From assembly GCA_003252375.1 (NCBI GenBank), contig QKEJ01000038.1, positions 1-64,000 of the forward strand: a DNA stretch of 64,000 nucleotides, in the 5' to 3' direction. Under the pieces are notes generated by a model. That model had not been told where the DNA came from and searched no databases. It saw nothing but the letters and a program-made list of their open reading frames with translations. A program made the position numbers and the translations under genes. The stretch is from Halodesulfovibrio sp. (lineage in GTDB: Bacteria; Desulfobacterota; Desulfovibrionia; Desulfovibrionales; Desulfovibrionaceae). Positions 38,056 to 46,287 of the stretch are shown piece by piece (within the stretch, counting starts at the first letter, position 1; every line of letters starts with the position of its first letter).

Positions 38056-40668
38056 ATGGCCAGACTTTCGACATTGCTTAGCAAACTCCCCCAGTTCAAG
38101 GAAGCCCGAATGGTAGCCTCCGGCTACGGGCTGTGGACGAACTGGGATGGTGACCTGAATGTCTCCATTACGCAAACGCTTCAGGATTACGGGGGATTGC
38201 AGATAGCCATTGACCGGGATCAGGCCGTCTGGTTTTTCTTTTCCACGGATATCTACCTTGCGCTGGCCCGACTGGAGGTTTGGGGAAAGTTCAATAAACT
38301 CCCTGTTTTTGCGCAGGTTTTTCCTGCCAAGCTGCTGTTCAGCAGCAAACGTGAGATTAATATTTCCGTTGATACGACTCTGGCAGCACAGACGGCCATC
38401 GTGCCGGAGGATCTGGAGATATGGATTCACTCCAGAGCCCGCGAAGACGGCAAGTCCATTCCCGGCCTTACCTTTGAGGACCGTAAGCCCTACACGGGGC
38501 TGGCCTCTGCCGAGTGGTCTGTGCTGCATGCCGATTCCCGTCTGCCGTTTCAGTCGGCCATGGGCTGGTACGGCGTGCTCAAGCCCTTGGGGAACCCCCT
38601 GGAAAAGGGGTTTCAGGCCGGGTGGCGTGAATTTTTCAAGGAAATTGAGGCCTTGTTTCAGCGCTTGAAGATCAAGTTCATGATCTTTGAGACATATGTC
38701 TTTTTCCAGATGGACAACCTGAGGGTGTTGCGGCTCTGGTGCCGGGAATACCTCTCTCTTATCGCCACGCTCAAGGAAGAGGCGCCGGAACGGTACTGGC
38801 CGTGTGTACAGGCCATCGTGGACCGCAAGGGCCTCAACTTCAACAATGAGCTGCACAAGAAGGTACGGCTTGATTGGGATCAGCTGGTTCCCGACTTTCC
38901 GCACATGAGTTACCGCAATGCGTATCTCATGGGGGAAGGGTTCGAGGTGCACGATACCCGGTTCAATGTCGAATCGAGCAGCGTGGATGACTGGTGCAAC
39001 ATCAACCTGGCCATGCAGGGAGAGGAAAGTCTCGGCATGCTGCCGGTGGTCATTTCCAACAGACTGGTGGCAGGGGCCAACAACCACTGCTTCTATTGCG
39101 GATTGAGGACGCATGAGCCTTCCGCCTGTCCCACACGCCGTTTCGAGGAGCTTGATTCCGGCATCTGGCGCAAGATTGCCTCCATGGAATTCGAGACCAT
39201 CAACCAGGGATTCAAGAGCATAGAGGATGCCTTGCAGGGCGATGTGCAGGAAGGCATAGCAGAAATTCTTGGCCGTGACGGGCTGGATAATGTGCTGCTG
39301 CGGGCCGTCTTCTCGGTGACCGATACCTTCCAGTTCCGCATGATGCGGCGCATGTGGATATCACGCGGCAAGGATTATCCCAAGGGGTTGGAGGAAATCG
39401 CTCCCAAGGATGAAAATCCGGTCTGGAACCTGCTCAACACCGTCATTGACGGTGACATCATCCATGCGGACAAGGAGCTGCAGCAGGTTGTCATCCGCTA
39501 TCCGCGGGATTTTCGTTCCCGGACCATCAACGGCTTCATCGCCATGGAGCGCGGCGATCTGGTGCGTGCCCAGCAACTCTGGAAAGAGGCGGAATCCTTC
39601 TGCACGTCTCCGCTGTTGCAGGCGTACCACGTCTTTCTGCAGGCCCGTAACCTCGAGATTCAGGGGCGGTATCAGCAGGCCAGCAATCTGTACAAGCAGG
39701 TTCTGCGTCTTTGTCCCATGTGGCTGGAAGCCATCTACCGTCAGGCCGTGTGTCAGGTGAAGATGGGCTTTGCCGATCAGGCCATGGGCTTTCTGGTCAA
39801 CCTGATCGAAAAGGACCCCAACATGTTCAACCGGGTGCTGCTTGATCCGGAAATGGAACGTGGTCATATCCAGATTCTTTCGGCCCTGCACGCGCCGTGG
39901 ACAGATGCGGAAACCAAGGCCGGCCAGATGCGCGAAGGGCTGGAGAAGCTCCGTATGGACATCGCCACCTGGTTCCCCGAGGAACACCCCTTTGCCGAAC
40001 AGGCGGCTGCGCGCATTTCCCGTTTGATGCAGCTGAGCGAAGTGAAGAACTTCGTTTCCTTCATGGGGTTGCTGCAGGGGCGGGAAAAGCTGGACAGGGA
40101 TCTGCAGATACGGGTGAACCAGGAAGCACGCGACCTGAAACAGAAGTTCAAGCACTATCTGGACAGGCTGACCTACATTCGCGACGAGGCGGCGTGGTTC
40201 CCCTTCCCGAGCATTCTCATCGAGTTCAACAAGCAGTACAACCTGTGTGCTGCAAACCTGAACTGGGCGCTGAAGACCCATTTTCAGGTGGCGGATACCT
40301 TCAAGCGGGCTCAGAAGATGGCGGAGGTGGAGGAAGAACGGCTGCTGCTGCTTGAAGGGCGGCTGCGCTTTCTCAGGGTGGTGCGTGACGCCACGCTGTT
40401 CATGCTGATTCTGGGCAAGACCTTCTTCTGGTTGGAACTGGCCTTTCTGCTGCTGACCCTCATCGGGCTGCCGCTGACCATATACTACGGGCAGACCATC
40501 GACGCCACATGGGCTACCGGACTGCTTGTGAAGCAGAAGTGGCAGATACAGAAGGGGCTCATCATCATTCTGTCGGTCCTTGCGCTGGGGCTTGCCTCGC
40601 TGCGGACCGCCGTGGTGTTCGACAAGACGAAGGACAGGCTGTTCCGCAAGGCCCGTGGCGAACTCTAG
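38056..40668 (+). CDS. 870-aa TPR-containing protein with CCHC zinc knuckle and C-terminal TM helices
   Basis: Continuous ORF; CFYCGLRTHEPSAC; TPR-like region at about aa 475-600; C-terminal hydrophobic helices LGKTFFWLELAFLLLTLIGLPLTIYY and GLIIILSVLALGLASL. Confidence 0.85.
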   Translation: MARLSTLLSKLPQFKEARMVASGYGLWTNWDGDLNVSITQTLQDYGGLQIAIDRDQAVWFFFSTDIYLALARLEVWGKFNKLPVFAQVFPAKLLFSSKREINISVDTTLAAQTAIVPEDLEIWIHSRAREDGKSIPGLTFEDRKPYTGLASAEWSVLHADSRLPFQSAMGWYGVLKPLGNPLEKGFQAGWREFFKEIEALFQRLKIKFMIFETYVFFQMDNLRVLRLWCREYLSLIATLKEEAPERYWPCVQAIVDRKGLNFNNELHKKVRLDWDQLVPDFPHMSYRNAYLMGEGFEVHDTRFNVESSSVDDWCNINLAMQGEESLGMLPVVISNRLVAGANNHCFYCGLRTHEPSACPTRRFEELDSGIWRKIASMEFETINQGFKSIEDALQGDVQEGIAEILGRDGLDNVLLRAVFSVTDTFQFRMMRRMWISRGKDYPKGLEEIAPKDENPVWNLLNTVIDGDIIHADKELQQVVIRYPRDFRSRTINGFIAMERGDLVRAQQLWKEAESFCTSPLLQAYHVFLQARNLEIQGRYQQASNLYKQVLRLCPMWLEAIYRQAVCQVKMGFADQAMGFLVNLIEKDPNMFNRVLLDPEMERGHIQILSALHAPWTDAETKAGQMREGLEKLRMDIATWFPEEHPFAEQAAARISRLMQLSEVKNFVSFMGLLQGREKLDRDLQIRVNQEARDLKQKFKHYLDRLTYIRDEAAWFPFPSILIEFNKQYNLCAANLNWALKTHFQVADTFKRAQKMAEVEEERLLLLEGRLRFLRVVRDATLFMLILGKTFFWLELAFLLLTLIGLPLTIYYGQTIDATWATGLLVKQKWQIQKGLIIILSVLALGLASLRTAVVFDKTKDRLFRKARGEL

Positions 40669-43765: not shown

Positions 43766-43800
43766 AAAAAGGGGCACCGGATTTTTTCCGGTGCCCCTTT
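43766..43800. terminator. Bidirectional terminator
   Basis: aaaaaggggcaccgg-atttttt-ccggtgcccctttct between convergent genes. Confidence 0.85.
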
Positions 43801-43820: not shown

Positions 43821-45551
43821 CTAGCAGGCGCGCAGTTCGTCCAGATGTGTCCTGGCGAACTCGATGCCGGGATCGATTTCCAGCGCTGCGGAGAGATACT
43901 CTTCTGCCTCCTCGCGTTGTCCAAGGAACTTGCAGCACAGGCCGAGGTTGGCAAGATCTATGGCGGAGCCCTTGTCCAGATCCCTGATGAGGGTCCGGAA
44001 GTCGTCTGCCGCTTCCGCGTACATGCCCAGCTTGAAGTGGGTGACTCCACGGAAGTTGAAGTACTCCTTCATCTCCGGACAGAGGCGAACGGCCCTGTTC
44101 AATCCGGGAAGGGCATCCTGCCAGGCTTCCCGCAGGGTATGGCAGTAGCCGCTGTAGAAGGCCGCAAGCCCCTTGGCGTCATCCTCTGGCTGAAGCGGTT
44201 CAGCTTCCTCGAAAAGGCCGGCGGCCACATCGTATGCCTCGGCCCGCAGGGCCAGCATGCCCTTGAAGAAGGGCAGAAAGTGCGCATCGGGATACACGCG
44301 TTCCAGTACGTCCAGCCCTTCGGCAGCCTGTTTGGCGTCGTATTCCTCACTGAGGATGCGGCCGATGAACAGGCCAAGGGAGGCGTTCTTGTCCCGTTCC
44401 CGGAACCGGAATCCGGGAACAAAGCTGTAGTGCGCCGGCACCTCCACTTCGGGGTGCGTGGTCCGGATGGAGTAGAGACGGAACTGCTGCGCGTCCAGCC
44501 CGCGGGCCAGCGCCATGAGTTCTTCGTAGATATCGCCGTGTGCGACGGAGGGCAGCGCCTCCAGGGTGGTCTCGGAGCCGTCGAGCAGCCAGCCGAGGTC
44601 TTCGGGCCGCGCGTACTTGGGAAGTCCGGAAGCCTCGTAGCAGGCACCGGTTTCGAAATCGCCCGCCAGCTGCGCCACCTCGGTCAGGGCACGGACGGCG
44701 GCCTTGACCGGTGAGGAGGCCGTTCCGGCCGTGTAGACGATTTCCGATGTTTCGGGGAAGGTTGCCGGGTCCCAGGCAATGGCGGCCACCGTGGGGACGG
44801 GCATGCCTTCTGAAAAGTCCTTGAGGATGACGACGATGCCGTTGTCCCGGAACTTGCGGAGCAGGTCCGCCAGCACGGGATCTTCCGCACCGTCCGTCAC
44901 GATGGTGGGCACCGGAGTGCCGGCCCGGTCGATGAGGCAGCAGACATGGCGCTCCACCAGTTCGCAGGCTCCCTGAAAGATGGATTCCTCATCCGTGTTG
45001 CCTGCGGAGGAGCCGTTGAATTCACCCAGCTTGCGGAACCAGTCGAGCGGCACGATGCGCTCTTCGCCGGAGAGAATGTCCGTAGCCGGGCAGAACCACC
45101 ACTCCACCAGATCCAGGACCTGAACAGCCTGTTCATGTGGCAGCGTTTCGGAAACGGACTGGAGAATGACATCCAGGCCGATGAGCCGGTTTCCGAAGCG
45201 TTGTGCGGCCTCGGACCATGTGCAGCGCACCATCTCGGGTTTGCGGTCCCAGAAGGTCCAGTAGCTGTAGCGTTCCATCAGCTCCATGAGTGCCGAGGCT
45301 TCAGCCTGGTCAATGGAAGCGCCTTTGCCCATCTGCTTGCGGGTGGGCATGAAGCGGCGTGCATCGGCTCCGCACACGGACAGGAAAACCGGAATGCCCA
45401 GCCGCCCCGTGTCGATGCGCCGGGTCTCCGAAAGAATGCTCGTGTCGAGCCCGGCAAGCCGTTCCTTGACCCGGCGTACCGTTTCCGCAGGAGACATGAC
45501 CTTGTCCTGGTCCGTGGTATAGTGCTTCACGCAGCTTGAGAGTCTGATCAT
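43821..45551 (-). CDS. YcaO-like domain protein with C-terminal TPR region
   Basis: RKQMGKGASIDQAEASALMELMERYSYWTF is the YcaO ATP-binding signature; GSSAGNTDEESIFQGACELVERHV; C-terminal TPR repeats. Confidence 0.9.
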   Translation of the reverse strand: MIRLSSCVKHYTTDQDKVMSPAETVRRVKERLAGLDTSILSETRRIDTGRLGIPVFLSVCGADARRFMPTRKQMGKGASIDQAEASALMELMERYSYWTFWDRKPEMVRCTWSEAAQRFGNRLIGLDVILQSVSETLPHEQAVQVLDLVEWWFCPATDILSGEERIVPLDWFRKLGEFNGSSAGNTDEESIFQGACELVERHVCCLIDRAGTPVPTIVTDGAEDPVLADLLRKFRDNGIVVILKDFSEGMPVPTVAAIAWDPATFPETSEIVYTAGTASSPVKAAVRALTEVAQLAGDFETGACYEASGLPKYARPEDLGWLLDGSETTLEALPSVAHGDIYEELMALARGLDAQQFRLYSIRTTHPEVEVPAHYSFVPGFRFRERDKNASLGLFIGRILSEEYDAKQAAEGLDVLERVYPDAHFLPFFKGMLALRAEAYDVAAGLFEEAEPLQPEDDAKGLAAFYSGYCHTLREAWQDALPGLNRAVRLCPEMKEYFNFRGVTHFKLGMYAEAADDFRTLIRDLDKGSAIDLANLGLCCKFLGQREEAEEYLSAALEIDPGIEFARTHLDELRAC

Positions 45552-45552
45552 G

Positions 45553-46287
45553 CTATTTGGCCCGTAATCTGTGAATGGTGAAGAGGGCGCGTCCGGCGTT
45601 GTCCGCTGCGGCGTCAGCAGCCGGGGCGGTCGATGCCTTGGTGCCGACGGTCTGTTCCTGCATGCGGAAGTCGCGTTCTGCAAGCTTGAAGAACTTCTTG
45701 GCCTTGCGCATGTAATCCTTGGCCAGCACGGCTTCGGCATCGGCCCGGCTGGAGAGGTGATGGCCGATGAACTTGACCAGCGCGCGGTGCAGGGATTCAA
45801 GATAGAGCACTTCGGCTCCGACAATGTAGTCGAAGGTCCGGTCGAGCCGGGTCGTCTGTATGTCCACCCGGCGCACCTGCACACGGTCGTCAAAACCGTT
45901 CTGCAGGACATTGATGCGGGCAAAGAGCAGGGCGTCGTCATTGATGTCGGAGATGACGATTTCCGAGAAGCCCTGCGTGGCGGCTATGAGGCCGGTCACG
46001 CCGCATCCAGCGCCGATTTCCAGCAGGGAGCGTCCCTCGGAGGGGACATGACGCAGGAAATGGCCGAGCATGAAGGAGGCGGGCCATATCTTTGCCCAGA
46101 GCGGCAGAGCCTTGAGGGCGTCTTCCTTGATGGTCGGGACAAGGTTGTCCAGGTAGGCGCGCATGTTCTGAACCTGCAGCACCTCAAGGGTAGTATCCCC
46201 CACGGTGAGCGGCTCGAAGCCCACTTCGAAGCGTTGCCGCGCCATATCGAGCAGTTCGTCCAGTGGAGCATCCAGACGGTATTGCAT
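45553..46287 (-). CDS. SAM-dependent methyltransferase (METTL/PrmA-like class I)
   Basis: LPLWAKIWPASFMLGHFLRHVPSEGRSLLEIGAGCGVTGLIAATQGFSEIVISDINDDALLFARINVLQNG. Confidence 0.88.
   Translation of the reverse strand: MQYRLDAPLDELLDMARQRFEVGFEPLTVGDTTLEVLQVQNMRAYLDNLVPTIKEDALKALPLWAKIWPASFMLGHFLRHVPSEGRSLLEIGAGCGVTGLIAATQGFSEIVISDINDDALLFARINVLQNGFDDRVQVRRVDIQTTRLDRTFDYIVGAEVLYLESLHRALVKFIGHHLSSRADAEAVLAKDYMRKAKKFFKLAERDFRMQEQTVGTKASTAPAADAAADNAGRALFTIHRLRAK

Follow-up and report, generated by a model that had tools for sequence, protein, structure and literature searches.

McrA and uL16 are the only proteins known to be thioamidated (PMC13063428). The YcaO enzymes of methanogens form a thioglycine in McrA, and in M. 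jannaschii this is achieved without TfuA (PMC5589413). The E. coli YcaO thioamidates folded uL16 at Met82 using sulfide and ATP, needs neither TfuA nor an RRE, and free sulfide suffices for its reaction in vitro (PMC13063428).

Among sulfate reducers a YcaO protein with TPR repeats, DVU2210 of D. vulgaris, has been described, and the published evidence for it is a genetic phenotype only. Deletion of DVU2210 or mutation of its ATP motif leads to molybdate resistance, only in a delta-sat background; one resistance mutation was reported within the second ATP motif, and sulfate respiration is normal in the single mutant, which reaches denser fermentative growth (PMC7774982). Both DVU2210 and dsrC scored high among the genes mutated during syntrophic evolution, the changes in dsrC being missense rather than loss-of-function (PMC8319347). 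Among the papers searched, none names DsrC together with YcaO.

The gene pair in the window and its relatives

The window analysed here, a stretch of 64,000 nucleotides from Halodesulfovibrio sp., carries a gene for a methyltransferase (MT) followed by one for a YcaO protein with a C-terminal TPR region (YcaO-TPR) (Table 1). The first-pass annotation of this DNA had placed the pair correctly: both ORFs are intact on the minus strand, and a single base separates the stop of MT from the start of YcaO. Beyond the 3' end of the YcaO gene the sequence shows, by eye, a terminator-like hairpin rich in G+C with a run of T, which indicates that the operon consists of two genes in the source genome.

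Table 1. Features of the MT-YcaO pair, in window coordinates
Feature	Position	Strand	Basis
MT, class I (seven-beta-strand) methyltransferase, METTL21-like	45553..46287	-	ORF; PF10294; METTL21A; family alignment
YcaO-TPR protein, D. vulgaris DVU2210 ortholog	43821..45551	-	ORF; PF02624; AlphaFold2 model
YcaO catalytic domain, residues 74-382	44406..45332	-	PF02624
First nucleotide/Mg-binding motif GKGASIDQAEASALMELMERYS, YcaO residues 75-96	45264..45329	-	GKG, E90, E93, R94 invariant
Second ATP-binding motif SAGNTDEESIFQGACELVER, YcaO residues 182-201	44949..45008	-	E189, Q193, E197, E200, R201 invariant
C-terminal helical TPR region, YcaO residues 392-575	43827..44378	-	TPR Pfam matches; model helices
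Intrinsic-terminator-like hairpin ggggcaccgg...ccggtgcccc + T5	43766..43797	-	by eye

The YcaO domain scored 193.8 bits against PF02624 (cut-off 25.7) and is followed by Pfam TPR repeats; the GKG-type ATP signature and the C-terminal TPR region recorded in the first pass are both present. Both ATP/Mg motifs of the superfamily (Sx6-7Ex3Qx3ExxER and GKG...ExxER) occur in the protein, and its second motif is nearly identical to that of DVU2210, SAGNTEEESILQGSCELVER (PMC7774982). In the AlphaFold2 model (pLDDT 91.9) the TPR region is helical and is a candidate substrate-binding or dimerisation part. No other YcaO was found in the source genome, which is 86.5 % complete.

YcaO-TPR is nearest to the thioamidating YcaOs. 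The top NCBIfam profile was TIGR03266 (McrA-glycine thioamidation) with 108.6 bits against an equivalog cut-off of 365, so that this family is the nearest relative and the protein is not a member of it, while NF040716 (the E. coli type, associated with uL16/S12) gave 40.5 bits against a cut-off of 700, again short of membership. The methanogen enzyme MJ1094 (methanogenesis marker 1) was first among the YcaOs in a sequence search of the PDB, with 68 bits, and first again in a Foldseek search with the AlphaFold2 model, ahead of LynD and E. coli YcaO; it has been solved both with ATP and with peptide. Identity to E. coli YcaO was 28 % over only 111 residues. A phylogeny had been suggested for placing the protein among the YcaO types; the profile, PDB and fold scores used here in its place set it well apart from the E. 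coli (uL16) type and closest to the thioamidating YcaOs of methanogens.

Like the methanogen enzyme, which can dispense with TfuA in M. jannaschii (PMC5589413), YcaO-TPR is tied to a key enzyme of anaerobic respiration or methanogenesis; unlike it, YcaO-TPR has an additional TPR part of about 180 residues, a paired methyltransferase, linkage to dsrC and a bacterial host. It shares with the E. coli enzyme an acidic character and a C-terminal TPR-like region, but its distribution tracks dsrA and not ribosomes.

MT matched PF10294 (lysine methyltransferase) with 61.1 bits against a cut-off of 21, and METTL21A was its top PDB match. The family alignment shows the conserved motifs LPLWAKIWP, LEIGAG and [DE]xx[YF], the last occurring as EVLY. 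On these features MT is a predicted METTL21-like protein lysine methyltransferase of the METTL21/Methyltransf_16 kind, and it differs from METTL21 enzymes in being bacterial and, in Desulfovibrionales, in standing beside a YcaO.

Neither TfuA nor a precursor gene was seen adjoining the YcaO gene, as the first-pass annotation had observed. RiPP partners (precursor, RRE, TfuA, dehydrogenase) were neither seen around the pair nor recurrent in 41 loci of the order, peptides below 60-70 aa and TfuA profiles lying outside this search. A RiPP cluster is unlikely, no precursor, RRE or TfuA being seen beside the gene and the recurrent neighbours being MT and dsrC. Apart from this locus, four YcaO genes lie within 7 kb on contig C14 of genome G129 (about 73500-80450; L397, L405, L409, L411), possibly a RiPP locus.

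Conservation of the pair and co-occurrence with dsrA

YcaO-TPR was found in 184 of 199 Desulfovibrionales genomes at E <= 0.001, a count that takes in a few weak TPR-only matches; most genomes have one full-length copy, and across the order the gene is about 50-82 % identical. MT orthologs were sought by a search of their own, separate from that for YcaO. Coordinates of both genes were listed for 122 genomes of the order; in 121 of them MT lay directly upstream of YcaO and on its strand (median gap 73 nt), and in the one exception the two genes were on split contigs. MT was not found in any genome of the order that had no YcaO, whereas 28 of the order genomes listed had YcaO without MT, which implies that MT depends on YcaO and not the reverse. 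The pair is genuine and kept far beyond chance. The lack of co-conservation that would have spoken against the first-pass proposal was not seen, and its reading as a conserved pair with a host protein as the likely substrate is supported.

Beyond the order, MT is mostly unlinked to YcaO, and 74 of the 76 genomes with the MT family carry YcaO-TPR. Among dsrA-bearing Desulfobacterota genomes, MT occurs in 74 of 104 with YcaO and in none of 40 without it.

Full-length YcaO-TPR was present in 105 of 297 Desulfobacterota genomes, and 104 of these carry dsrA, which was counted if it passed the curated cut-off or was split; the remaining one is a 62 %-complete assembly. Of the other genomes, 152 had neither gene and 40 had dsrA without YcaO-TPR. 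The co-occurrence spans some 35 families and has a Fisher p of 3e-45, uncorrected for relatedness. Within the order, the four genomes found without dsrA (G103, G170, G181, G188) are also without YcaO-TPR. YcaO-TPR is not essential for sulfate or sulfite respiration: the deletion strain respires sulfate normally (PMC7774982) and thirteen Desulfovibrionaceae genomes have dsrA without YcaO-TPR.

As a separate observation, all four Desulfovibrionaceae found without dsrA (L318, L322, L323, L324) keep dsrC, and in their DsrC Lys94, next to Cys93, is Arg.

Linkage to dsrC and the DsrC arm

The order MT>YcaO>dsrC or YcaO>dsrC was found in 24 of 41 sampled loci of Desulfovibrionales, and dsrC was adjacent in about half (34 of 70) of the named loci with enough downstream sequence. 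Genera with dsrC downstream of YcaO include Pseudodesulfovibrio, Humidesulfovibrio, Solidesulfovibrio and Desulfonauticus. In nine further families outside the order the arrangement was YcaO>dsrC in seven and dsrC>YcaO in one, with the two genes one gene apart in another. A genome usually holds just one dsrC among its thousands of genes, so that repeated adjacency in varied arrangements is unlikely to arise by chance. In the genus of the window dsrC is on another contig and the linkage has been lost. No YcaO-TPR gene was noticed beside dsrAB in the loci examined.

YcaO proteins of another kind also occur near these genes. Genome G296 has a second, TPR-less YcaO near dsrC, and a TPR-less type of 437-438 aa lies inside dsr loci of G269 and G462 (L251, 9592-10905; L252, 8669-9985), both of which also have YcaO-TPR.

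The end of DsrC reads FPSGP-G-KGACK-M-AGL in genomes with YcaO, and FPSGP-A-KGACK-[ILV]-AGL in most genomes of the phylum with dsrA and without YcaO. None of the 106 DsrC sequences from YcaO-bearing genomes departs from Gly89 or Met95, and four other columns split the two groups less strictly. Gly89 alone also changes in members of family f44 without YcaO-TPR and in two Desulfovibrionaceae having neither dsrA nor YcaO. The DsrC tree has four changes between Gly and Ala, each in a lineage without YcaO, against at least ten changes of YcaO. YcaO has been lost several times with Gly89 kept; 18 sequences come from genomes that have Gly89 and no YcaO-TPR, so Gly89 does not require YcaO. Corrected for phylogeny by independent pairs, of which three to four were usable, the association is not significant. 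We take Gly89 as a pointer to the DsrC arm and not as proof. DsrC of Pyrobaculum and Archaeoglobus is of the Ala type, and by eye no DsrC residue clearly tracked the presence of MT inside the order.

The DsrC arm (FPSGPGKGACKMAGLPKPTGCV) is basic, with a pI of 9.4; the complete DsrC (pI 5.2) is acidic, as is YcaO-TPR (pI 4.8-5.0, family median 4.95). The four PDB entries with D. vulgaris-type DsrC (2v4j, 2xsj, 3or1, 3or2) list standard residues in the sequence file.

Two further gene types were seen where YcaO-TPR is missing. Congeners of the window organism without YcaO-TPR (L400-L403, L412), as well as L404 (G379), encode a divergent YcaO that is about 580 aa long and extended at its N-terminus by about 200 residues, and their DsrC keeps Gly89. 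In six loci from dsrA-bearing genomes without YcaO-TPR (L250, 2969-5970; L256, L258, L254, L265, L266) a protein about 470-650 aa long is encoded, and its C-terminal TPR part shows homology to the one in YcaO-TPR (125-148 bits). A gene for a B12-binding radical SAM protein stands directly upstream of it in five of the six, the pair in L250 lies within a dsr locus, and the DsrC of these genomes, where read, has Ala89. The B12-radical-SAM/TPR pair may be an alternative modification pair for the same substrate.

Proposed role and alternative explanations

The pair is co-conserved, linked to dsrC and nested in dsrA-bearing genomes, and the association is strong. Its position beside sulfite-reduction genes and its co-occurrence with them across sulfate reducers suggest that it probably modifies a protein of sulfate respiration, and the evidence points to the DsrABC machinery, which gives a lead to the substrate. 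The first-pass annotation recognised a true pair and guessed its kind rightly, and overlooked dsrC beside YcaO in many related families as well as the DVU2210 phenotype. Calling the pair uncharacterised was too strong for the YcaO, since that phenotype is published (PMC7774982).

We give about an even chance to the reading that the pair is a module for maturing, by protein modification, the machinery of dissimilatory sulfite reduction: YcaO-TPR would introduce a thioamide into DsrC close to Gly89, and MT would methylate the same machinery. The linkage to dsrC, the co-occurrence, the Gly89 association, the kinship with thioamidating YcaOs, the contrast in pI between YcaO-TPR and the DsrC arm and the published genetics speak for this reading. 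Against it stand the standard residues in the four PDB entries, the small number of Gly/Ala changes, the retention of Gly89 without YcaO-TPR, the unlinked dsrC in the genus of the window, the dsrA-bearing Desulfovibrionaceae that have no YcaO-TPR, the normal sulfate respiration of the DVU2210 deletion and the acidity of whole DsrC. For DsrC as the substrate the probability seems to be about one half; given a Dsr protein as substrate, that for thioamidation as the chemistry would be about two thirds. MT would act on the same protein as YcaO.

In the proposed mechanism YcaO-TPR would bind one of the folded DsrABC proteins; DsrC, held by its mobile and basic C-terminal arm, is the most likely one. 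With ATP and the abundant intracellular sulfide the enzyme would replace a backbone oxygen by sulfur (+15.98 Da). Sulfide is plentiful in a sulfate reducer, and the lack of a nearby TfuA is thus to be expected if the reaction is thioamidation. The target would be at or beside Gly89, four residues before the redox-active Cys93, and the DsrC peptide LFPSGPGKGACKMAGLPKPTGCV is the proposed place of the S-for-O shift of +15.977 Da. The METTL21-like MT, translated from the same mRNA, would methylate a side chain, probably of lysine, in the same protein or complex, and would have a role in YcaO-bearing organisms only. Such a change would adjust the arm by which the DsrC trisulfide enters DsrAB, and would be useful without being essential. 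A broader generalisation is more tentative: DsrC of most sulfate-reducing Desulfobacterota may have a backbone thioamide on or next to Gly89, together with a methylated residue, introduced by YcaO-TPR and MT, with the B12-radical-SAM/TPR pair acting instead in some Ala89 lineages.

Were thioamidation of DsrC correct, this abundant protein of 105 residues would be the third kind of thioamidated protein, at the heart of sulfate respiration, and the DsrABC system, which drives the sulfur cycle, would contain in a central step a hidden modification missed in its published crystal structures. It would also explain why DVU2210 is mutated under molybdate and in syntrophy alongside sat and dsrC, and would give a function to YcaO-TPR, which is largely common to the sampled families of sulfate reducers.

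Of the alternatives that remain, modification of DsrAB ranks first, sulfur donation by DsrC second and a uL16 substrate third. It is possible, though unlikely, that the pair modifies DsrA or DsrB in the active-site region, by analogy with McrA, the linkage to dsrC reflecting only a shared pathway. The co-occurrence is indeed with dsrA itself, MT lies 3.7 kb upstream of dsrA in G445, in G269 the second YcaO type precedes dsrA by about 3.9 kb, and McrA offers the closest known precedent for such a YcaO target (PMC5589413). However, in the loci examined it is dsrC and not dsrAB that YcaO-TPR repeatedly adjoins, and it is a site in the DsrC arm, Gly89, that follows YcaO.

DsrC/TusE proteins carry sulfur. 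DsrC could be the donor, its persulfide or trisulfide feeding YcaO in a TusE-like relay for the thioamidation of some other protein; the lack of TfuA beside the gene and the adjacency of dsrC would fit, but we regard this as improbable, as E. coli YcaO makes do with free sulfide in vitro (PMC13063428), the association with Gly89 is left unexplained and organisms without YcaO-TPR also keep DsrC.

A ribosomal substrate, which the first-pass annotation had raised through the RimO pathway, is very improbable. YcaO-TPR resembles E. coli YcaO in its low pI (4.8) and C-terminal TPR part (PMC13063428), but it is confined to dsrA-bearing genomes, whereas uL16 is universal, and the profile score and short alignment given above set the two apart. 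The search pattern found six uL16 loops, none from the source genome; five read RMG[KS]GKG after KKPAET. Among these few genomes the loop was alike with and without YcaO-TPR. On distribution, profile scores and loops, uL16 was rejected as substrate, and the suggested ribosomal or RimO link is not supported.

We know of no YcaO that acts on oxyanions. The proposal of Zane et al. that the enzyme adenylates molybdate or similar oxyanions in a futile activation, the link to sulfite reduction being incidental, draws on the molybdate resistance of the delta-sat delta-DVU2210 strain and of the motif mutant (PMC7774982), but it is the least probable reading, as it leaves MT, the dsrC linkage and the protein-type relatives unexplained and the phenotype also fits an altered state of DsrC or Dsr.

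Elsewhere in the window, at 38056-40668 on the plus strand, there is a gene for a protein of a type about 870-930 aa long with membrane-like C-terminal segments, relatives of which adjoin YcaO on the opposite strand in 12 of the 41 loci of the order.
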